DNA of 23,242 nt, from positions 1 to 23,242 of IMG/VR virus record IMGVR_UViG_3300046811_000099; one strand, 5' to 3'. A program made the translations under genes and the position numbers. The stretch comes from a virus. The notes beneath the pieces were generated by a model that did no database searches, had not been told where the DNA came from, and was given only the letters and a program-made list of their open reading frames with translations. Position 1 is the first letter of the stretch. Every line of letters begins with the position of its first letter. Positions 1-14,422 of this stretch are shown here, piece after piece.

Positions 1-246
1 GCGGCCGCCGCGTGGGCCGCCGCGTGGGCCGCCGCGTGGGACGCCGCGTGGGACGCCGCGTGGGCCGCCGCGTGGGCCGCCGCGAGGGACGCCGCGTGGG
101 ACGCCGCGAGGGACGCCGCGTGGGACGCCGCGTGGGACGCCGCGAGGGCCGCCGCGAGTAAAAAACTGCGCGCCACCGTTGAAACACTTCAGGCGTCTGC
201 GCTGGAACTCGTGCGCGAGTTGTGCGCCATGAAGGACGTGGCATAG
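1..246 (+). CDS. Ala/Trp/Asp-rich tetrapeptide-repeat protein (3' part)
   Basis: An open frame enters from the left edge and stops at TAG 244-246; 81 residues are visible. Residues 1 to about 52 are repeats of A/D-A-A-W/R, followed by a non-repetitive tail that begins SKKLRATVETLQ. The four-residue period predicts a helix with Trp or Arg every fourth position, giving one aromatic/basic stripe, or a fibrous segment. Comparable AAW/AAR repeat proteins are common in phage genomes as uncharacterised products. The stop lies directly before the next ATG at 247. The start and any N-terminal domain lie outside the window, and no function is assigned. Confidence 0.75.
   Translation, partial: AAAAWAAAWAAAWDAAWDAAWAAAWAAARDAAWDAARDAAWDAAWDAARAAASKKLRATVETLQASALELVRELCAMKDVA
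4..159 (+). repeat. 12-bp coding tandem repeat, 13 units
   Basis: Thirteen consecutive 12-base units of the form G(C/A)C-GCC-GCG-(T/A)GG, the last ending in AGT, run without interruption. Units vary only at the second base of codon 1 (Ala or Asp) and at codon 4 (Trp or Arg). Since the period is a multiple of three, the array keeps the reading frame and encodes four-residue Ala/Asp-Ala-Ala-Trp/Arg repeats. It starts at the window edge, so the full array may be longer. Confidence 0.95.
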
Positions 247-456
247 ATGAACATGCGCACCCCCGAGGGCAACGTCACGTTGCTCTCCGATTATCTCAAG
301 AAGGACAACCCGCTGAAGTGGGAGCCAGGGCAGCTCGCGCCGGTCGACGTGCCGGAGTGGGCGCGGAAGAAAGCGCCGGTGGTGCCGATCCGGAAGAGCC
401 CGATCCGGCATTTTCTCGCTCCGTTGAACCCGTTTCGGGGAAGGCGCGCGCGGTGA
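247..456 (+). CDS. Small hypothetical phage protein
   Basis: This 69-residue protein starts at the ATG directly following the upstream stop, with a weak AAGGA at 232-236. Its stop TGA (454-456) overlaps the GTG start of the methyltransferase gene, which suggests translational coupling. The protein is basic at its C-terminus (PFRGRRAR) and has a Leu/Trp/Pro-rich middle (KWEPGQLAP). It shows no signal peptide, membrane segment or cysteine cluster. I do not recognise the family. The tight junctions on both sides support a real gene. Confidence 0.6.
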   Translation: MNMRTPEGNVTLLSDYLKKDNPLKWEPGQLAPVDVPEWARKKAPVVPIRKSPIRHFLAPLNPFRGRRAR

Positions 457-1553
457 GCGTTCAGATTCTGCAAGGCGACGCGCTCACGCGGCTACGAGAG
501 ATGCCCGACGAGTCGGTGCATTGCTGCATCACGTCCCCGCCGTACTGGGGACTCAGGGACTACGGCGTGCTGGGGCAGATCGGGCTGGAGGCGACGCCGT
601 CGGAATACGTGGCGCGCGTGATTGAGACGTTCTCCGAAGTCAAGCGAGCGCTCAGGCGTGACGGAACGCTCTGGTTAAACCTTGGCGATTCCTATGCTGA
701 CGGCGGCCGCGGCTCGGACACAAACTCAACGCTGGATGGCACCCGCCACAATCAACGCGAGTCGCGGCGTGTTCGCGTGCGCGAATCGTATCGGCGAGAT
801 CGCCGGCCGCGCGAGGACGATCCACACAAGCGCGTGGCCAACCTGAAACCGAAAGACCTGATGGGCATCCCATGGATGGTCGCTCTGGCGCTGCGCTCTG
901 AAGGCTGGTATCTCCGCCAGGACATTATCTGGTCTAAACCCAACCCGATGCCCGAGTCGGTTCGAGATCGTTGCACCAAGGCCCACGAGTACGTGTTCCT
1001 GCTGTCGAAATCGGAACGGTACTACTACGACGTCGACGCGGTTCGTGAGCCGCTCGCGGAGGCGAGTGTCGATCGACTCCGGCAGGATGTTGATTCACAA
1101 GATGGCAGCGGTCGCGTGCCGGGAAAAACGAATGGAACGATGAAAGCGGTTGGTGGCGATCGTCGGCGCGGTCGATCGAGCGAGGACTTTCGCGGCCACG
1201 ACATGCGCAACAAAGACATGGAGCGATTCGGAACGACTCGCGGCAAGACGAACGAGTCCTGCACGCATCCGAATGGCCGCAACAAGCGCAGCGTCTGGAC
1301 CGTCACCACGCAGCCGTTCAAGGAAGCGCACTTCGCCACATTCCCGCCGAAGCTCATCGAGCCGATGGTCAAGGCGGGTTACCCCGTTGGCGGTACCGTG
1401 CTGGATCCGTTCGGCGGCGCCGGAACCACCGGGCTCGTGGCGGATCGGCTTGGGCGTAACGCTATCCTGATCGAACTCAACCCTGACTACTGCGAGATGG
1501 CGCGTCGGCGGATTCGTGACGACGCGCCGCTACTCGCCGGGGGTGACGCATGA
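453..1553 (+). CDS. DNA methyltransferase (TSPPYW type, beta-class order)
   Basis: S-adenosylmethionine-dependent DNA methyltransferase of 366 residues acting on the exocyclic amino group of adenine or cytosine. Catalytic motif IV is TSPPYW at residues 27-32, and the SAM-binding motif DPFGGAGTTG comes late, at about 318-327. This IV-before-I order is typical of the beta class. Conserved blocks KPKDLMGIPW and AHEYVFLLSKSERYYYD lie between them, with a long Arg-rich insertion likely to contact DNA. The in-frame frame opens earlier, at 222, but the GTG at 453 is preferred: it overlaps the preceding stop, has GGGGAAGG at 437-444, and puts motif IV at the usual distance from the N-terminus. No restriction endonuclease is adjacent, so it is probably an orphan enzyme protecting phage DNA or altering host methylation. 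N4C versus N6A specificity cannot be told. Confidence 0.93.
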   Translation: MSVQILQGDALTRLREMPDESVHCCITSPPYWGLRDYGVLGQIGLEATPSEYVARVIETFSEVKRALRRDGTLWLNLGDSYADGGRGSDTNSTLDGTRHNQRESRRVRVRESYRRDRRPREDDPHKRVANLKPKDLMGIPWMVALALRSEGWYLRQDIIWSKPNPMPESVRDRCTKAHEYVFLLSKSERYYYDVDAVREPLAEASVDRLRQDVDSQDGSGRVPGKTNGTMKAVGGDRRRGRSSEDFRGHDMRNKDMERFGTTRGKTNESCTHPNGRNKRSVWTVTTQPFKEAHFATFPPKLIEPMVKAGYPVGGTVLDPFGGAGTTGLVADRLGRNAILIELNPDYCEMARRRIRDDAPLLAGGDA

Positions 1554-3091: not shown

Positions 3092-3513
3092 TTACGTTCC
3101 GCATTGTTCCCGATTCTCTCAACGGCGTCATCCATGAAGGCCTTACGCCCGCCGGCATGGATTCGCTGAAAACATTTCAGGTGATCAGGCACGAAGTGTA
3201 CCGCGCGCCCGTCATAACGCTTCACCAGCCCGCTAATTTTACCAGCGGGACCATCACGTTCGCGCTGCCGCCGGAGCACCACTGGTGGTTCTACGTGGTT
3301 ACGGGCGTCGTGATTCTATTGGCACTTTTAGCGGTGATCGAAATCTGCGACTGGTGGCAGTGGCGAAAGACGGAGAAGCTAGTACCCGCAGCTCATCCAG
3401 AGCGCGGCCACGACAAACAAGAGGATGATAACGAAGGACAGGATCGACCACACATGGTCGCGATGGGGGCGCATGGGACTAATGATAGCGCGGACGAAGG
3501 AGAGCTTCAATGA
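3088..3513 (+). CDS. Single-pass membrane protein
   Basis: A 141-residue frame with GTG start overlapping the lipoprotein stop. The N-terminal 60 residues are polar and lack a signal peptide. One transmembrane segment lies at about residues 66-86 (FYVVTGVVILLALLAVI), flanked by aromatic belts (HHWW and DWWQW), followed by a short basic stretch (RKTEK). The last ~45 residues are very hydrophilic (His, Asp, Glu, Gln, Gly) with codon third positions far less G/C-rich than elsewhere, so this tail may be weakly constrained. Pairing with the upstream lipoprotein suggests a two-component envelope function. A holin role is not supported, since there is a single long soluble domain and no neighbouring endolysin. 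Confidence 0.65.
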   Translation: MITFRIVPDSLNGVIHEGLTPAGMDSLKTFQVIRHEVYRAPVITLHQPANFTSGTITFALPPEHHWWFYVVTGVVILLALLAVIEICDWWQWRKTEKLVPAAHPERGHDKQEDDNEGQDRPHMVAMGAHGTNDSADEGELQ

Positions 3514-4034
3514 TCCAGTTTACGGTACTTGGTACGCCGGCCCCGAAGGGCAGCGGTCGCGCGATGTTGATCGCCGGCCGCGCGGTGCACGTCCCGTCCA
3601 CATCCAACGTGAACCGGAACGCATTGGCAGCGTGGAAGAACGCGGTGCAGCGTGCAGCCGCGGGGGCTATTGCCGACGCCGCGCTCGCTGGAAAGGACGT
3701 CCAGCGGCCGATCTTCAAGGACACGCCGGTCTACGTGCGGATCATCTTTTTCCTCGAACGCCCACAGGGCCACTACAACGCCAAGGGCGAGTTGAAGCCA
3801 TGGGCGATCGGCATGGTGCCGGCCGTGAAGCCCGACAAGGACAAGCTCGAGCGCGCGACCCTGGACGCCTTGACCGGGATCATCTTCGACGACGACTCGC
3901 GCGTGGTGGACGGCCGAACGACCAAGCAATATGCGGACGCCCGCGGCGACGAGGGCGCCTTCATCCGGGTTAAGGAATTCGTGCGCCAGGTGGCGACCAC
4001 ACCGCTTTTCGCGGAGACGCGCGCTGGCCCGTGA
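3510..4034 (+). CDS. rusA: RusA-family Holliday junction resolvase
   Basis: A 174-residue endonuclease of the RusA family, which cuts four-way DNA junctions as a homodimer using divalent metal ions. The diagnostic block is KPDKDKLERATLDALTG at residues 107-123 followed by IIFDDDSRV. It supplies the conserved acidic residues (Asp109, Asp111, Asp127-129) that correspond to the active-site aspartates of E. coli RusA. The N-terminus VLGTPAPKGSGR also fits the family (typical PxxKxR motif). The usual Asn of KPDxDN is Lys here. GGAG lies just before the ATG, which overlaps the preceding stop. Position beside a replication initiator fits a role in processing recombination or replication intermediates before packaging. 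Confidence 0.92.
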   Translation: MIQFTVLGTPAPKGSGRAMLIAGRAVHVPSTSNVNRNALAAWKNAVQRAAAGAIADAALAGKDVQRPIFKDTPVYVRIIFFLERPQGHYNAKGELKPWAIGMVPAVKPDKDKLERATLDALTGIIFDDDSRVVDGRTTKQYADARGDEGAFIRVKEFVRQVATTPLFAETRAGP

Positions 4035-5992: not shown

Positions 5993-6520
5993 ATGCCAAC
6001 CCTTGCTGTTCAAAAACATAAGCCTAACCCACAACAACTCGCGTTTATCGAGCTCCTGGCAGACCCGGGCGATTTCCGATCGATCAGCGAGAAAGCGGTC
6101 GAGGTTGGGTATGAGGCGAGTTATGGCCGGCACCTCGCAGCGGACCCGACCTTCTCGGAATGGGTGCTCGAGCGCGCGCGTGAGATGGTACGCTCGCGAA
6201 AGCCGGCGATATATCGCGAGCTCGTCCAGGACGCGACGACACACACGGACGGCGACAGCATCACGCGCCACCGCGCCGCGCGACTGATCTTCCAAGCCAC
6301 GGGTGAGATCAAACCCGCGACGCCCCACGTGACGATCAACGACAATCGCCAGGTCGTCCTGGTTGGCTTCTCGGATAAACTATCCGCGCTATTCTCGGAA
6401 CGTCGCGCGCAGTTGCAGGAGGTGGGCGTCGTTGAGGCGAGAGCAGACCAGGAAGATGGTGCGCGAAGCAAGAAGCCGAAGCGCAAAGGCACGAACGGCA
6501 ACGGCCACTCAGCCGAGTAG
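5993..6520 (+). CDS. Putative terminase small subunit
   Basis: A 175-residue protein immediately upstream of, and overlapping, the terminase large subunit gene. The N-terminus (NPQQLAFIELLADPGDFRSISEKAVEVGY) fits the helix-turn-helix of small terminase subunits of the phBC6A51 kind. This is followed by helical segments (WVLERAREMVRSRKPAIYREL) that would form the oligomerisation region. The tail is basic and low-complexity (SKKPKRKGTNGNGHSAE). Small subunits recognise packaging sites on phage DNA and stimulate the large-subunit motor. No Shine-Dalgarno is evident before the ATG, and the first codons are less G+C rich than the neighbourhood. Assignment rests on position and fold-like pattern. 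Confidence 0.7.
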   Translation: MPTLAVQKHKPNPQQLAFIELLADPGDFRSISEKAVEVGYEASYGRHLAADPTFSEWVLERAREMVRSRKPAIYRELVQDATTHTDGDSITRHRAARLIFQATGEIKPATPHVTINDNRQVVLVGFSDKLSALFSERRAQLQEVGVVEARADQEDGARSKKPKRKGTNGNGHSAE

Positions 6521-8054
6521 CGACCCCGCGAGCGAAGAAGAACTCATTGCCCGCTGGTTCAACGATCCCCGCTACTTCGCGGAGACGGCGCTCAAGATTC
6601 GCATCGCCGGCACCGCGCGCCCATGGCAGTTCTCCAGGACGCAGAATCTAAACTTCGAAGAGCTCTACCGCCGCACGCCTGGCGGCGCGTGGTACCGCTG
6701 GATTCTCTCCGACATCGAGGGCAAGGGCCGCCAGCGCGGTGGCTCGACCGAGCGTCTGCTGTATCAGTTTCACCCGTGGTGCTTCGGCGGCGACTTCGGC
6801 CCCGCGTTCGTCGGGAAGATCATCGCATTCGCGGACGACACGGCGCAGAAACTGAAGCTCATTGTCGAGCTATTCCACGACTCCGCGCTCGAGACGTGCG
6901 AGAAGGTGCTCTCGTGCGATCCCTACGAGATCATCCCGCGCATCGCGACGGGCAACGTGCACGAGCTCCGCGGTGAACGCGGCAACTCGCTCCGCTTCGC
7001 ATCCGAGAAGACCCGCGGCGCCGGGCGCGCCGAGACCACCAACGCGCTCTACATCACCGACCTCGGCGAGTGGACCAACTACGACGAGGTGATCGCGGGC
7101 TATGCAGGCTCGCTCTCACAGACGGGCCATGAGTTTGTTGACCGTGACTTCACTGGCAAGGGACCGGGTAATGCGGCGCACCGCGTGTACGAGCGCATGA
7201 AGCGCATCGTGAAGGAAAATCCGAACGGTCGCACGCGCGCCCGCTTCTTCGGGCGCAAGGACATCGACTACCCGCCGGGGCACTTGAAGCAAGCGCGTGA
7301 CAACATGGACGAGGACACGTTCGAGCGCGAGTTTCCCCTGACCGAAGAGGACATGTTCCGCGGTTCACCAAACGCGCGCTTCAAACCCGTCTGGGTGAAA
7401 GCGGCGTATGAGCGCGAGTATCGCTTCCTTGTGGACTTCAGGACGCCCGAGCAGATCCTTGAGAATTGCATCCCGTGCTACGGGGTCGACTCAGCCGAAG
7501 GCACGCCGGAGAGCGACTTCTCGGTCATCAAGTGCCGGTGTGCAAAATGCGGCCTCGAGATCATGCCGCCGGTGCGCGAGCGCCTCACGCCCAACGAAAC
7601 GGCGCACAAGGTCAAGGCGATGCATGACCAATTCCCCGGGCTTATCAACCCGCTGCGCAAGAACCACGGCCACGCGGTCATCGACAACTTGAAGGGCCTC
7701 GGGCTCGGGCCGTGGATCTACCGCCAGGACGTGGGGAACGAGGACGATCGCCACGGGCTTGATGAGAATACGCTCACGAAACCCAAGATGCAGGACACGC
7801 TGGAAAAGCTGATGAAGGACGGGCTGATCAACATGCCGGACGAAGAGACGCGCATGGAGGTCACGATTTTCGGGAAGCAGAAAAACGGCGAGATTGAAGC
7901 GCCGCCGGGGTTCCACGACGACACGGTCGTCGCCGAGATGGCGTGCGTGGTGGCGTTTCCACAGGCGTTGCGCAAGCACGAATCCCTCACGACACCGGCC
8001 ACGATGGCATCGCAATCCAGCTCGTTCGAGAACTTCGACGCGTTCGACCAGTAG
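6456..8054 (+). CDS. terL: Terminase large subunit
   Basis: DNA-packaging motor subunit with an N-terminal ATPase and a C-terminal RNase H-like nuclease. From ATG 6456 it is 532 residues. A variant Walker A (GRQRGGST, residues 91-98) resembles the RQxGxST loops of other large terminases. Walker B is ALYITDLGEW (197-206, Asp202 with Glu205 as catalytic carboxylate). Nuclease acidic residues are Asp345 (YGVDSAEG), Asp410 (HAVIDN) and Asp488/489 (FHDDTVVAE). A Cys cluster (C360, C362, C365) lies within the nuclease domain. The frame extends upstream to a TTG at 6363, deep inside the small-subunit gene. ATG 6456 is the first ATG that fits, still overlapping that gene by 65 bases. Confidence 0.93.
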   Translation: MVREARSRSAKARTATATQPSSDPASEEELIARWFNDPRYFAETALKIRIAGTARPWQFSRTQNLNFEELYRRTPGGAWYRWILSDIEGKGRQRGGSTERLLYQFHPWCFGGDFGPAFVGKIIAFADDTAQKLKLIVELFHDSALETCEKVLSCDPYEIIPRIATGNVHELRGERGNSLRFASEKTRGAGRAETTNALYITDLGEWTNYDEVIAGYAGSLSQTGHEFVDRDFTGKGPGNAAHRVYERMKRIVKENPNGRTRARFFGRKDIDYPPGHLKQARDNMDEDTFEREFPLTEEDMFRGSPNARFKPVWVKAAYEREYRFLVDFRTPEQILENCIPCYGVDSAEGTPESDFSVIKCRCAKCGLEIMPPVRERLTPNETAHKVKAMHDQFPGLINPLRKNHGHAVIDNLKGLGLGPWIYRQDVGNEDDRHGLDENTLTKPKMQDTLEKLMKDGLINMPDEETRMEVTIFGKQKNGEIEAPPGFHDDTVVAEMACVVAFPQALRKHESLTTPATMASQSSSFENFDAFDQ

Positions 8055-8099
8055 CGATTCCACTTGACGCGCCACGGCGCTGGAGATTATGCAGCAGCG

Positions 8100-10040
8100 G
8101 TGAAGACGCCCGAGAAGAAGTCCAGTTCACGTCGCGCGTCACGCACGCCCACACACCACAATCCCGTCCAGCTCGCCGACGGTGGGGCTGCCGCCATCAA
8201 GACCGGCAAAGAGTATGCATCCTTTGCCGGCATGTCCGTCGCGGGCTTCAGCGCCACCGGCACCGGACCCCTGATCAACATGATGCCCGTCATCGGTCAG
8301 CGCGGCCACCAGGCTGTCGACCAGATGATGACCGACGACACGCTCGGCACGTGCATCGAGATCAAGAAGCGCGCGGCGCTCTCGACACCGTGGTCGTGGG
8401 AGGCGGCGAGCGATGATCCCGAGCACCAGAAAGACCAGCAATACCTGACCCGCGTCTTTGACCGGCTGGATTCCGCCGAGCAGGACGAGAACGGTGTCAA
8501 CGTCGGCGTCGTCAATAAGCTCCGCGACATCCTCTCGAAGATCGAGCACGGCTACAGCGTGACGAACATCCTGTTCGACGTGATGGAGGACGGCGACTTC
8601 GCTGGGTCGTACGGCCTGGCGGACCTCAAAACGAAGCCGCCGCACTTCTTCACCTTCGAGACCGACCAGTTCCTGAATCTGAAACCGGATGGGATCATCC
8701 ACAACTACACCGACAAACTGCCGGTCGACCAGTTCCTGGTCGCGACGCACGATCCCCGGTTCAACAACGTGTACGGGTACAGCGAATGCATCCGCGCGTA
8801 CGAGCCGTGGAACTACAAGAAAATGTTCCAGCGCATGCGCGCCGTTCGCCTGGAGCGGTTTGCCTCCGGGACGCTTGACGCGGAAGAGAACAGCCAGGAT
8901 CCACCGAGCGCCGGCGAGCGTGCGAACGTCGACTCGCTGGGCCGCGGCATGCAGGCGAAGAGCTACATTCGCCACACCGACAAGATCAAGATCAGCATCC
9001 TCGAAGCGGCCTCGGGCACGGACGACTTCGCCGCGGCGATCACCGACCAGAATATCCAGATCGCCCGCGCGGTCTTCTTTCCCGACAAGATGGGCTTCTC
9101 AGCGGGCGACAAGGCGGGCGGTGCCTACGCCATGTCGAAAACGCACCTCGACACGTGGGTGCAGATCGTGACATCGCTCCAGCGCGACCTGGCCGTGCAG
9201 ATGAAGCGGCTGGGGAGAAAGCTGATCGTCGCATCGTTCGGCGTGCGCGACAAGTATCCGAACTTCGTGTTCGGCGATATGACCGAAGAGCAGGTCGGGG
9301 CGTTCGTGACGCAGGTGGTGCAGCTCACGACCGCAGGCTACCTGGACCCGCTCGACACGACAGTGCGCAAGAAAGTCCGCGAGCTGATGGAGTTCCCGGA
9401 GGAAGAGGACGCGACGGTCGAGCAGATGCGAAAAGAGCGCGACGCAAAGAGGAAATCCATGAACCAGAAGCAGACCGATCCCAACGCGGACCCGAACGCC
9501 GATCCGCAGGCCGGGGGCGACACGCAGAATTTTGCGGAGGACGACGGCCGGGTAAGTGACGGCGGCATTGATTGCGATTCGCTCGACGGCAGACTGTTCG
9601 CCGCCGCTGATCCCGAGACGACCATCACGGCGGCGATCGCCGCCATTCAGGCGGCTCCCGGAGGCGTCGTCATCGTTGGCGGGCCCAAGTCCGGCAAGTC
9701 CACGATCGCGTCGGTGGCGGCCGAGCGGTTCAAGATTCGCGCGCGCTACGGCGACAACCTGATCGGGCAGATGGGCTGGTCCGCCATGTCGGACACCGTG
9801 GCCGAGTGGTTCGACGCGCCGGGCAAGTGGATCGTCGAGGGCGTCGTGACCGTGCGTGCAATTCGCAAGTGGCTCTCGTTCCACCCGGACGAGACGCCGC
9901 CGTTCACGATCATCGTGCTCTCCGGTTCGATCCAGAAGCGCAGCCCCGGCCAGTCCGCGATGGCTGCGGGCGTGACGACGATCTGGAACGAGATTCAGCC
10001 CGAGCTGGAAGCGCGGGGCGCGACGGTGGTGATGGTGTGA
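8100..10040 (+). CDS. Portal protein (DUF935/Mu gp29-like) with C-terminal P-loop domain
   Basis: A 646-residue protein when started at GTG 8100; a TTG at 8064 would add 12 residues, and neither has a convincing Shine-Dalgarno. The first ~440 residues match DUF935-type portals, with TDDTLGTCIEIKKRAALSTPW, IEHGYSVTNILFDVMEDG, EPWNYKKMFQ, KTHLDTWVQIVTSLQRDLA. The portal forms the dodecameric DNA channel at the capsid vertex. A flexible linker with (NADP)2 repeats follows. The last ~126 residues are a kinase/AAA-like P-loop domain with Walker A GGPKSGKST at 527-535, WIVEGVVTVRAIRKWL, and GQSAMAAG. This resembles small phage ATPases I know as separate proteins. An internal start at 9459 could release the domain. 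Confidence 0.87.
   Translation: MKTPEKKSSSRRASRTPTHHNPVQLADGGAAAIKTGKEYASFAGMSVAGFSATGTGPLINMMPVIGQRGHQAVDQMMTDDTLGTCIEIKKRAALSTPWSWEAASDDPEHQKDQQYLTRVFDRLDSAEQDENGVNVGVVNKLRDILSKIEHGYSVTNILFDVMEDGDFAGSYGLADLKTKPPHFFTFETDQFLNLKPDGIIHNYTDKLPVDQFLVATHDPRFNNVYGYSECIRAYEPWNYKKMFQRMRAVRLERFASGTLDAEENSQDPPSAGERANVDSLGRGMQAKSYIRHTDKIKISILEAASGTDDFAAAITDQNIQIARAVFFPDKMGFSAGDKAGGAYAMSKTHLDTWVQIVTSLQRDLAVQMKRLGRKLIVASFGVRDKYPNFVFGDMTEEQVGAFVTQVVQLTTAGYLDPLDTTVRKKVRELMEFPEEEDATVEQMRKERDAKRKSMNQKQTDPNADPNADPQAGGDTQNFAEDDGRVSDGGIDCDSLDGRLFAAADPETTITAAIAAIQAAPGGVVIVGGPKSGKSTIASVAAERFKIRARYGDNLIGQMGWSAMSDTVAEWFDAPGKWIVEGVVTVRAIRKWLSFHPDETPPFTIIVLSGSIQKRSPGQSAMAAGVTTIWNEIQPELEARGATVVMV
9448..9461 (+). promoter_or_regulatory. 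Internal ribosome-binding site and ATG for P-loop domain
   Basis: AGAGGA at 9448-9453 lies 5 bases before ATG 9459-9461, in frame with the portal gene. Initiation here would give a 193-residue product containing the linker and the complete P-loop domain. The portal's own start has no comparable signal. Whether it is used cannot be told from sequence. Confidence 0.45.
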
Positions 10041-11131: not shown

Positions 11132-11389
11132 ATGGCCACCGTCACCTATACCCGCAGCTATTCCGTCGACACCATCATCTGGGACGGGACCAACCTCGCC
11201 GAGATTGTCGCGCTCTGCGGCGCCAACGCGGTCGAGCAGGTTTGGAATCCCGGGACCGCCACGACGCGGCTGCGCGTCTTCAACACGGACATTTCCATCG
11301 GTGAAGCCGTCGCCGTCATCCACGGCACGACAACCCCGCCCGGCACCGGGCGTAAGTACGTCCCGGGCGATCCGGAGTACAGCCTGTGA
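11132..11389 (+). CDS. Small protein of the tail-module paralogue type
   Basis: An 85-residue protein, first gene after the terminator, with a weak GGGCGGTGA before the ATG. The core VDTIIWDGTNLAEIVALCG, a short strand (RLRVFNTD) and GEAVAVIHG recall the small phage beta proteins with pattern V.A..W.G.N..EI....G ... G..... and resembles the genes at 20983, 21244 and 21531. Its stop overlaps the GTG of the protease gene, so the two are probably coupled. Role unknown. Confidence 0.62.
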   Translation: MATVTYTRSYSVDTIIWDGTNLAEIVALCGANAVEQVWNPGTATTRLRVFNTDISIGEAVAVIHGTTTPPGTGRKYVPGDPEYSL

Positions 11390-12933
11390 AGAAGCTGAGC
11401 CGGAAACAACTCACCGCGAAGGTCAAAGCCGATTGGGCCAAGGTGGACGCGCTCGCCAGCGCTCCCGATTGCGTGGAGCTCTGCTATGTCGAAGCCGTGG
11501 GCGATGCCTACGCGGTCAAGTGGAAGCAGTACCCCGAAACGATGGGCGAAGCCGTCACCATCGACACGTTCAACGATCCCAAGCAGGCCGCTGACTACTG
11601 CGCGCTGATGAACCAGATGCGCATGGATTCCTTGCGCATCGACGCATTGAACACGGCCGGCGATCTCGAGGACGCAAAAGAAGAAGCCGCGGCCGACGCC
11701 ACGCTCGACAATTACGGGCTCTCGGAATGCGAGTACGCATCCCCTGATGGTTCCGATCCCCTCCCGACCAAGGACCTGCACGACGTGCCGATGCTCGACG
11801 CGGGTACCTGGCGCTCGATGTCCGGGGAGACGGTCACGTTCACGAAGAAGGACCTGGCCGAGCTCGTCGCCAGCTTCAACGCGACCAAGGACGTTCTCAA
11901 GCCCTTCGCAAAGCTCGGCCACATTTTTGACGAAGACCAGCGCGCGCGGACCGGTGCGCCATCGGTGGGACGCATGGCGAACCTGCGTCTCACGAATGAA
12001 GGCAACCGCATCATTGGTTCGCTCCTGAACGTGCCGCTCAAGCTGGCGCGCTTGATGGAAGCCAAGAGTTACACGCGGCTATCACCCGAAATCTTCCGCG
12101 ACTTCAAGGACGCAAAAGGCAAGGTCTATCGCCTCGCCTTCAAAGCGGTGTCCATCCTCGGGGCAACACTCCCGGCCTGTCACACGCTCGACGACATCAT
12201 CGTGAACCTTTTCGGCGAGGGCGCGCGCGCGACCGCCATCGCGCCGGTATCCACCGGAACGGTGATCGCGCTCTCCGAACCGATTCAGCAGGAGGAATCA
12301 GTCATGACGAAAGACCAGTTGATCCAGCTCGCCACGTCGCTCGGCCTTCCGGCGACCGCGGACGAAGCGACGATTCTTGCCGCGGCTGCCGCACTCCGGC
12401 GCGCGCACACCGAGTCCGCCGAGCAGCTCGAAACTGCCCAGCGCACCGAACTCGCGGCCGGCATCACGACGCAGCTCACGCGCGCCAAGGCCGAGGGCCG
12501 GATCATGCCGCAGCAGGAGAACGGCCTGCGCGAGATGGTCAACGGCTGGGTGAAGGACGCGACCAACGACGATGGCCGTCTTCAGACGGTCGAGTTCGCC
12601 GCCACGGTCGACGGCAACACCGTCACCAAGAAGGGCACGATCGTCGAGAAGTTCTCGGCGTTCGTGGACCAGCTCCCGGTCGTGTTCAAGCACGTCACCG
12701 AGCTCGGTAGCGGCGAGCAGGACGACAACAGCAACCTCGGCAACGGTGTCGCGCGCGACACGCTGCGTTTCGCCGCGGGAATGCTCGGCCGCCAGATCGG
12801 TTTCGATCGCGGCTCTCTGGAGCGCGATCGCCGCATCAAGGCGTACGCCAACAAAAACAATCTCCGCAAAGCAGACGGCACGATCGATTACTGCGCGGCG
12901 TACACCGCCGTCGTGGTCGAAGGGGCGGTGTAA
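11386..12933 (+). CDS. Head maturation protease/scaffold (Mu I-like)
   Basis: A 515-residue protein with GTG at 11386 overlapping the previous stop. Residues 1-130 are an unrecognised N-terminal extension. The protease region has PFAKLGH at 173-179, GAPSVGRMANLRL after it, and YTRLSPEIFRDF near 229-240, followed by LAFKAVSILGATLPA, matching the Mu-like prophage I protease pattern. It would cleave scaffold and capsid precursors during head assembly. From about residue 300 the protein becomes helical and charged, typical of scaffold. A strong internal ribosome-binding site at 12290 precedes an in-frame ATG at 12304, so the C-terminal part is probably also made alone. It lies directly upstream of the decoration and major capsid genes. 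Confidence 0.85.
   Translation: MKKLSRKQLTAKVKADWAKVDALASAPDCVELCYVEAVGDAYAVKWKQYPETMGEAVTIDTFNDPKQAADYCALMNQMRMDSLRIDALNTAGDLEDAKEEAAADATLDNYGLSECEYASPDGSDPLPTKDLHDVPMLDAGTWRSMSGETVTFTKKDLAELVASFNATKDVLKPFAKLGHIFDEDQRARTGAPSVGRMANLRLTNEGNRIIGSLLNVPLKLARLMEAKSYTRLSPEIFRDFKDAKGKVYRLAFKAVSILGATLPACHTLDDIIVNLFGEGARATAIAPVSTGTVIALSEPIQQEESVMTKDQLIQLATSLGLPATADEATILAAAAALRRAHTESAEQLETAQRTELAAGITTQLTRAKAEGRIMPQQENGLREMVNGWVKDATNDDGRLQTVEFAATVDGNTVTKKGTIVEKFSAFVDQLPVVFKHVTELGSGEQDDNSNLGNGVARDTLRFAAGMLGRQIGFDRGSLERDRRIKAYANKNNLRKADGTIDYCAAYTAVVVEGAV
12290..12306 (+). promoter_or_regulatory. Strong internal Shine-Dalgarno for nested scaffold
   Basis: AGGAGG at 12290-12295 is spaced 8 bases from ATG 12304-12306, in frame with the protease gene. 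It is among the best ribosome-binding sites in the window, although it lies inside a gene. Confidence 0.8.
12304..12933 (+). CDS. Nested scaffold protein (in-frame internal start)
   Basis: Initiation at ATG 12304 gives a 209-residue protein identical to the C-terminus of the protease gene product. It starts MTKDQLIQLATSLGLP, continues with Ala/Glu/Arg-rich helices (AAAAALRRAHTESAEQLETAQ), and ends near DYCAAYTAVVVEGAV. In Mu (I/Z) and lambda (C/Nu3) the scaffold is likewise made from an internal start of the protease gene. The scaffold would guide major capsid protein assembly and then be degraded by the protease. The ribosome-binding site directly supports this; the expression itself is inferred. 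Confidence 0.72.
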   Translation: MTKDQLIQLATSLGLPATADEATILAAAAALRRAHTESAEQLETAQRTELAAGITTQLTRAKAEGRIMPQQENGLREMVNGWVKDATNDDGRLQTVEFAATVDGNTVTKKGTIVEKFSAFVDQLPVVFKHVTELGSGEQDDNSNLGNGVARDTLRFAAGMLGRQIGFDRGSLERDRRIKAYANKNNLRKADGTIDYCAAYTAVVVEGAV

Positions 12934-12939
12934 CGAGAC

Positions 12940-13374
12940 ATGGCAGCAATCACTCTTCCGTTTGATTTCCCCGGTCTGTTCCGGGGCCAGGCTCTCTCGT
13001 ACTACTCGGGCGCGGCGATCAAAGAAGGCTTTGCCTGCGTTGTCGCCGGAACGGCCGAGAACGAAGTCATCGAGTCGCCCGGGACCAACCTGGTCTCCTT
13101 CGGCTTCGTCCGGTACAACACCGGCAAGAGCTACGCCGTCGCCGGCAACGTCGCTCAGATCCCCATCGCGACGGTCATCAGCGTCTTCGTCAGCGGCATC
13201 GTCATCGCGGTCGCCAGCGCGGCCATCGCCAAGAATGCGCGCGTCGGCACCGCGGCCAACGGACAGGTCGTGACCGCGACCAATGCGAATCCCTACGTCG
13301 GCATCGCGCGCACCGCGGCGGCCAACGCGGGCGAATATTTCGCACTCGAAATCACCAACGGCTCGGGTGCGTAA
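12940..13374 (+). CDS. Capsid decoration/cement protein (DUF2190-like)
   Basis: A 144-residue protein starting 6 bases after the protease stop and ending 25 bases before the major capsid ATG. It is glycine/alanine/valine-rich with repeated short strands (AIKEGFACVVAGTAENEVI, VSVFVSGIVIAVASAAI) and ends ANAGEYFALEITNGSGA. This matches the head-stabilising proteins of the DUF2190 type that often sit between protease/scaffold and major capsid genes. Expected location is the outer capsid surface at three-fold or quasi-three-fold axes. The upstream Shine-Dalgarno is weak. Confidence 0.65.
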   Translation: MAAITLPFDFPGLFRGQALSYYSGAAIKEGFACVVAGTAENEVIESPGTNLVSFGFVRYNTGKSYAVAGNVAQIPIATVISVFVSGIVIAVASAAIAKNARVGTAANGQVVTATNANPYVGIARTAAANAGEYFALEITNGSGA

Positions 13375-13399
13375 CCCAGGAAAGACGAGGAAAACGAAC

Positions 13400-14422
13400 A
13401 TGCGAAACAATCTGATTCATGCTCGCTCGCCGCACGAAACGGACATCGTCTACCTGGCGGATCGCCTGCACAACCAGGAGCCTGACTTCTTGGAGTTCGC
13501 CACCGCGGCCGGCGTCGTCGTGCAGGAAGACCTGACCAATCTGGCGCGGGCCTACAAGCCCGAGTCGATGGGACTCATCGCCGATATTGTGGCGCCGGTA
13601 CGCGGCGTCACCACCGAGGCGGGACGCTATACGGCGTTCGGTCAGGAAGGTTTCGACATCGACACGAGCGACGCGCTCGCCGATGACGCCGAAGCCGGGA
13701 CGATCGATCTCGCGGCCGAAAAGGTCAGCTACCAGATTGACCCGCGCGGGCTGCAGGCGTTCATCAGCGACCGCCTGGTGCGGCAGATGCCGAACCTCGT
13801 CGCGATGACGATCAAGCGTCTGAAGTTTGCGCTGCTGCTCCGCATGGAGATTCGTGTGCGCAATCTCGCCGACGCCGCCTCGGGCGCGATGGTCTCCGCG
13901 AACCTCACGAACTTCGACTCGAGCACGCAGACGCTGCAGGACATCGCGGCCGCCATCTCGGCGTTCGAGGCCAACCTCGGCCTTTCGCCGAATCTCTTCG
14001 TCATGCCGAAAAACGCGGCAGACATCTGGGTCGCGAATCCGGACCTGCGCGCGAGCATCGCGGCCGCCACGGCGGTGCAGGACGGCCGGAAGTGGATGGG
14101 CCTCATCACGTCGAAGGGGCTCGACGCCAACAACCCGCTCGGCATGAACATGGTGTTCCCGAACGCGTTCTACACGAACTCGGCGCCGGGTGCGGCGCGC
14201 ACGAAGACCCGCCTGTGGGCCAACGACGCGTACCTGATCTATCAGGACACGGAGACGGAATCGTCCTCGTGGGCGGTGCAGCTCTCGTACCTCGAGCCGA
14301 CGGTCGTGTCCTGGCGCGAGGAATCGCGCGGCACCGGCGGTGCCATGTACAAGGTCTATTTCCAGCGTCTCGAGAAGCAGCTGACGCCGGAGTCGATCTA
14401 TAAGCTCCTGTCGATCATCTAA
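13400..14422 (+). CDS. Major capsid protein
   Basis: A 340-residue protein starting at ATG 13400 with GACGAGGA upstream; the frame is open from 13283, but that would overlap the decoration gene. It shows features of HK97-fold capsid proteins: an N-terminal helical part, a core (DALADDAEAGTIDLAAEKVS, ISDRLVRQMPNLVAMTIKRL), and a C-terminal domain with WANDAYLIYQDTETE and LEPTVVSWREE. Position after protease/scaffold/decoration and codon use typical of highly expressed genes support this. It lacks an obvious long N-terminal delta domain, consistent with a separate scaffold protein. Confidence 0.88.
   Translation: MRNNLIHARSPHETDIVYLADRLHNQEPDFLEFATAAGVVVQEDLTNLARAYKPESMGLIADIVAPVRGVTTEAGRYTAFGQEGFDIDTSDALADDAEAGTIDLAAEKVSYQIDPRGLQAFISDRLVRQMPNLVAMTIKRLKFALLLRMEIRVRNLADAASGAMVSANLTNFDSSTQTLQDIAAAISAFEANLGLSPNLFVMPKNAADIWVANPDLRASIAAATAVQDGRKWMGLITSKGLDANNPLGMNMVFPNAFYTNSAPGAARTKTRLWANDAYLIYQDTETESSSWAVQLSYLEPTVVSWREESRGTGGAMYKVYFQRLEKQLTPESIYKLLSII

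Follow-up and report, generated by a model that had tools for sequence, protein, structure and literature searches.

Accounts of phage DNA packaging usually feature a single ATPase, the terminase. The window studied here, the whole of a 23,242-base IMG/VR viral contig that is the sole contig for its virus, raises the question of what a second P-loop would do on the portal itself, as one open frame at 8055-10040 (+) runs from a portal through a linker into a Walker A domain with no internal stop. The answer is dependent on several aspects, which include whether the fusion is real, what kind of domain has been added, where its relatives are found, and what they are joined to. The coordinates of the locus are collected in Table 1. 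Elsewhere in the window there are a 12-bp tandem repeat at 6-156 (12.6 copies, 93% match; encoding AAAW-type repeats on the + strand), an N6/N4 DNA methylase early in the contig (222-1553; PF01555, E 8.9e-48) and a RusA-like resolvase (3510-4034).

Table 1. Features of the fused gene and of its neighbours in the window (residues counted from TTG 8064)
Feature	Position	Residues	Strand	Basis or remark
Probable terminase small subunit	5993..6520		+	HTH_Tnp_1_2-like, weak: Pfam E 0.004, below cut-off
Terminase large subunit, directly upstream of portal	6363..8054		+	phrog_24361 E 8.4e-11; start codon not fixed
Fused ORF (Mu-type portal by profile, linker, predicted P-loop kinase-fold domain)	8064..10040		+	
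Portal domain PF06074	8310..9368	83-435	+	Pfam E 9.9e-35; phrog_113
Linker	9459..9608	466-515	+	low-complexity
P-loop kinase-fold domain (predicted)	9609..10037	516-658	+	structure model, fold matches
Walker A GGPKSGKST	9678..9704	539-547	+	matches GxxxxGK[ST]
D564 after strand beta-2	9753..9755	564	+	Asp/Glu in 71/72
WIVEGV, end of strand beta-3	9828..9845	589-594	+	model and homologue alignment
GQSAMAAG, lid position	9948..9971	629-636	+	homologue alignment
Head maturation protease/scaffold	11386..12933		+	phrog_3894 E 8.7e-33
Major head protein	13283..14422		+	phrog_1005 E 7.7e-25; true start probably downstream of 13283

The fused ORF has two candidate starts, TTG 8064 (658 aa) and GTG 8100 (646 aa), and ends with TGA at 10038-10040. 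Judged by its profile matches, the portal half is a Mu-type portal (Portal_Mu, PF06074/DUF935), with a score of 120.9 bits against a cut-off of 23.9 over profile positions 2-331 of 336, while phrog_113 matches residues 86-494 (E 2.7e-40). The original prediction of a portal fused to a P-loop kinase-like domain is borne out by the single open frame, the PF06074 match and the intact Walker A. Its (NADP)2 linker, GGPKSGKST, WIVEGV and GQSAMAAG all read as it had described them, the first at residues 474-481 (9483-9506) and the others as in Table 1. The structure model has low pLDDT across linker residues 495-514, and in the best explanation the linker between portal and domain would be a flexible tether.

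A sequencing or assembly error could imitate such a fusion if a one-base indel in the linker had joined two separate overlapping genes. No stop is hidden between 9440 and 9660, the interval in which one had been feared; the other two frames are interrupted across the junction by stops at 9460/9553 and 9557/9569/9608, and a single indel in about 9460-9608 is therefore the one remaining artefact route. A single-base change there, in a virus represented by one contig, would yield two overlapping genes, and separate genes with a PF06074 portal are indeed kept in loci L069, L074 and L075. No near-identical contig was found among the viral contigs, either by single-sequence pattern scans with the domain or whole protein or by a junction-pattern search. 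Against an indel, G+C is highest at codon position 3 throughout the junction (0.75-0.97, with a weak contrast at 9480-9660, where position 3 has 0.75-0.78 vs 0.70-0.72), so that the maximum persists in the fused frame. Likewise, the portal-P-loop architecture is present in three other contigs (L012, L041, L092), and in the domain tree the window clusters with L012 and L041 (SH-aLRT 87, from few columns, with no bootstrap and with L092 absent). An error of this kind is thus considered very improbable. At the level of sequence, the fusion of portal and P-loop is confirmed as real rather than chance, because the domain has viral relatives 40-48% identical to it (lowest tblastn E 2e-33) and a set of active-site residues is invariant.

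The junction may also give rise to two products, a reading that is compatible with all the others. The in-frame ATG 9459, which is the sole in-frame start there ahead of the Walker A, has a Shine-Dalgarno-like AGAGG upstream and would additionally yield a free 193-aa P-loop protein. Similarly, L012 has an in-frame ATG (2590) near the start of its domain, after GGGAGG. However, L041 has no comparable start site, and Shine-Dalgarno-like motifs are short and arise by chance, which leaves a second product doubtful.

What the domain may be is best approached through its fold. A domain model (AlphaFold2, 72 homologues; pLDDT 90.6, pTM 0.83) has a helix at 517-530 followed by a core at 533-658, and the closest solved folds are gluconate kinase (Z 9.7), adenylate kinase (9.2) and shikimate kinase (9.1), with bacterial polynucleotide kinase also matched (Z 8.5, 127 residues aligned). 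The likeness to kinases extends in this way from Z 9.7 to 8.5 over 111-127 residues, and as the top kinase folds all lie within about 1.2 Z, they settle the class but not the exact family. Hence, a fold of the small-molecule/nucleotide-kinase type is predicted confidently. The RNase J entries in the fold list are partial overlaps with higher rmsd and were set aside. As for curated families, the last ~140 residues match none above cut-off, weak kinase-like matches being limited to the Walker A half. Zeta toxin (PF06414) was rejected at 11.7 bits against a cut-off of 22.3 and AAA_18 (PF13238) at 17.2 bits against 29.4, the latter match being confined to the Walker A half; an AAA+ identity is unsupported by profile scores and fold matches alike.

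The active site is sharply conserved. G539, P541, G544, K545, E592 and R598 are invariant in 72/72 homologues, and D/E564, R601, K602, Q630 and M633 are kept in 71/72. E592, within WIVEGV, is a Walker-B-like acidic residue, after which come R598, R601 and K602. In the alignment with T4 polynucleotide kinase, the column of D564 corresponds to Asp35, the general-base aspartate of that enzyme, which has an established catalytic role. Classic nucleotide kinases and polynucleotide kinase (PNK) use lid arginines, those of PNK binding the phosphate donor. By comparison, residues 619-640 contain no conserved lid arginine, the best candidate being R626 (24/72 homologues); the domain is therefore not filed as a polynucleotide kinase, and its catalysis could be atypical or absent. 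A nucleotide or DNA-end kinase is accordingly no more than a candidate, as the beta-2 acidic residue fits PNK-like chemistry whereas the lid does not. ATP binding can be safely predicted from the motif and the modelled fold, and from there we infer phosphotransfer. In general, the domain has in common with gluconate, adenylate, shikimate and polynucleotide kinases the predicted fold, the Walker A and the beta-2 and beta-3 acidic residues, while its sequence match to P-loop kinases is restricted to the Walker A half. Unlike those kinases, the family is shorter, has conserved RALRKW and GQxAM motifs of its own, and is without a conserved lid arginine.

A domain HMM recognises 122 distinct viral loci, the window included, and most of the members are stand-alone genes of about 120-150 aa that lie mainly in the terminase-portal-head module. 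The resemblance to small stand-alone phage proteins, which had been remarked on at the outset, thus holds for most of the 122 loci, and they have no curated family name. These relatives were reached via two-sequence and later alignments used in viral-contig scans, single-sequence pattern scans of those contigs, run with the domain or the complete protein, having found none. No convincing cellular relative appeared in the genome contig scans, in which short patterns can miss divergent members. One locus (L083) was dropped as a large FtsK/HerA-like ATPase matched through its Walker A, and in another (L113:5924-6376) the P-loop coding region is spread over two overlapping frames, which suggests a frameshift or sequencing error. 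In the best explanation, the family would comprise unnamed small P-loop kinase-fold phage proteins that look catalytically intact from their residues. One cultured-collection record, the Caudoviricetes phage MW202476.1, has a relative of the domain (UOF77383.1, annotated 'ADP-ribosylation factor-binding protein') that is 40% identical. Unlike the window fusion, it is a separate ORF overlapping the portal gene end, and its portal belongs to another family (DUF4055/phrog_145) than the window portal.

The arrangement from which the window fusion came can be approached through the PF06074 portals that lack the domain. In L069, L074 and L075 the portals have an open frame of 443-483 aa and, unlike the window portal, end without the kinase-fold domain; a separate P-loop gene begins within a few bases of the portal end or overlaps it, and L076 likewise has a PF06074-type portal with a separate P-loop gene. 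A survey of cultured phages gave 78 records with a match to the portal part of the window, and in the 40 matches listed there is no P-loop extension, the alignment ending by about residue 498. The same architecture, for which a survey of DUF935 portals had been proposed, is lacking from L069, L074, L075 and the 40 cultured matches listed. It had also been considered that the two parts might always be separate in relatives; they are separate in L069, L074, L075 and L076, and fused in L012, L041 and L092. Because L069, L074 and L075 keep a PF06074 portal with an adjoining separate P-loop gene, the window fusion is most simply derived from the separate-gene arrangement, or was acquired with the fused tail of L012/L041.

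Portals are one of several partners. The domain is found at the C-terminus of PF06381-type portals (L012, L041, L092), a family other than the PF06074 of the window; on TerL, at the C-terminus in L099 and at the N-terminus in L109; at the N-terminus of a TerS-like protein (L103); on MuF, at the C-terminus in L042 and at the N-terminus in L072, L073, L077, L079 and L080; and at the N-terminus of the scaffold (L019, L020, L123 and L125, and L128 with a weaker scaffold match). As TerL, TerS-like, MuF and scaffold proteins also carry the domain, its relation to its partners is not portal-specific. The fusions to different partners apparently arose independently, and the domain tree holds at least four switches between the fused and the stand-alone state. 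Within the MuF fusions dN/dS is 0.02-0.09, and the domain is therefore maintained.

Other composite proteins were met in the same loci. The five N-terminal P-loop and MuF proteins (e.g., L079:5192-7318) contain, as judged by eye only, long proline-rich repeats and a ParB-like ELTDGRHRMAAARAAGA segment at the C-terminus. In L027:3005-5326 and L031:3372-5705 a PF06381 portal and a sigma-54-interaction AAA+ domain with its lid form one ORF of 774-778 aa, with a weak HTH_17 match also in L027; both have a stand-alone P-loop gene about 300 bp downstream.

The genomic context of the family points in the direction of its fusion partners. A portal, TerL, MuF or scaffold lies within 3.5 kb in 86/122 loci and a portal within 1.5 kb in 68/122, counts that may be biased, as packaging-linked members supplied the seeds of the scan patterns. 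Among the 57 contigs of at least 30 kb, portal or TerL is within 3.5 kb in 32, vs 19% expected from a simple uniform-placement estimate (p 8e-10, a value that is too small because related phages are non-independent draws), and by the HMMs used it is not within that distance in the other 25. Where no packaging neighbour was detected (36 loci), the genes that can be recognised nearby are again most often TerL, head maturation protease and tail sheath, with some nucleases and other genes also present. The association with the packaging module is strong but not universal. The adjoining portals represent at least five families (PF06074/phrog_113, phrog_145, phrog_146/PF06381, phrog_104-like and phrog_156), and a PF04860 portal scan of unassigned contigs gave one clear additional case only. 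ORFs homologous to the window TerL adjoin a P-loop gene in L003, L004, L006, L026, L033 and L059. Near some copies there are further genes, such as an 864-aa ORF with a beta-1,4-glycosyltransferase phrog match (L016:5291-7882, E 6.5e-29), which lies some 1.4 kb downstream from the P-loop gene and is related to ORFs in 11 loci with a phrog_104-like portal, and a 523-aa ORF (L021:3632-5200) with an HD-domain/5'-deoxynucleotidase-like region (HD_3, E 2.7e-21), the first 250 residues of which have no assignment and after which comes a DUF2213 protein.

The position of the stand-alone copies varies: some follow TerL and precede the portal, others come immediately after the portal, at the portal-MuF junction or just upstream of TerL, and those of L002, L075 and L076 overlap the portal stop or adjoin it. 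In a compact operon, adjacency of genes is enough to produce fusions, and a small late-operon gene with an unrelated role, packed tightly against portal or terminase, might simply join whichever neighbour loses its stop codon, the link itself being functionless. The overlaps and the varied junctions agree with this, as the partners are the neighbours of the gene. Yet adjacency leaves unexplained why packaging modules retain the gene across phages whose portals are of many unrelated kinds; moreover, there are several partner types with both termini used, and some of the fusions persist within clades (five MuF, four or five scaffold and three PF06381-portal loci). Adjacency is the least favoured of the three functional accounts considered here.

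The account we prefer, with a probability of about 0.47, is that the domain is an active kinase-fold accessory of packaging and head assembly that is tethered here to the portal, with phosphotransfer as its presumed reaction. The family proteins would work alongside the machinery that packages DNA and assembles heads, in most phages as a small gene of their own inside the terminase-portal-head operon, and in the window phage by way of the flexible linker to the portal C-terminus, with up to twelve copies per portal vertex. The domain would bind ATP and move phosphate onto a hydroxyl, with D564 as the putative general base and E592 near the metal; the acceptor may be a nucleic-acid end, a nucleotide or a protein handled in packaging or assembly. 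The tether would only raise the local concentration at the portal. Portals are expected to have their C-terminus towards the inside of the capsid, and because of this the placement of twelve NTPases beside the terminase motor, as originally pictured, is not the obvious geometry, although the proposed number of up to twelve copies is retained.

The same interior position suits a different account, in which portal, MuF or scaffold would carry the domain inside the capsid, and it would be injected along with the DNA to modify a nucleotide or macromolecule in the host, for example in counter-defence, in the manner of other enzymes that are joined to portal or MuF. Fusions to all three of these proteins would put the domain in the procapsid interior, and the published precedent is good (PMC5512222; PMC9503650). 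Against this account, no release site was identified, and the fusions to TerL (L099, L109) and TerS-like (L103) put the domain on proteins absent from the virion. The fusion partners sit on both sides of the capsid shell, TerL/TerS outside and scaffold/MuF inside, and this argues against a purely injected cargo and for a packaging or assembly role, or for a late-expressed enzyme indifferent to its neighbour. Injection is hence regarded as unlikely, if slightly less so than mere adjacency; the weights given to the packaging/assembly kinase, the injected cargo and adjacency are judgements, ranked in that order.

To return to the packaging and assembly role, which is what the partners have as their common denominator, a further step can be ventured tentatively. 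The family might be a common partner of phage packaging that performs ATP-dependent phosphorylation at the vertex and has been repeatedly fixed there because location matters, with DNA ends, nucleotides or an assembly protein as candidate targets. The findings point to an enzyme-like protein that is widespread in phage packaging modules and whose active site is sharply conserved, and its natural fusions offer a means of locating its action in place and time. If true, a second ATP-binding partner, tied in different phages to portal, terminase and scaffold, would be a testable addition to packaging by one ATPase.

No literature report was found of a P-loop kinase-fold domain common to portal, terminase, MuF and scaffold, in a search outside of which most subscription journals lie. 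Enzymes joined to head proteins have been described, and include the domains of PBECR RNase, 2H phosphoesterase and InPase (inorganic pyrophosphatase-like) type that phage portal or MuF proteins carry (PMC5512222), and the Nudix and 2H domains fused to MuF, portal or head protease, which were proposed to be packaged and injected (PMC9503650). A portal-P-loop-kinase fusion is not among the enzyme fusions in the available portions of these accounts, against which enzyme-portal fusions appear as already known and the kinase-fold P-loop variant as new. As far as those portions extend, the PBECR, 2H, InPase and Nudix fusions and the window protein have in common an enzymatic domain, a predicted one in the window, on a head or packaging protein, while the window family goes beyond their descriptions in being carried by terminase subunits and scaffold as well (PMC5512222; PMC9503650).
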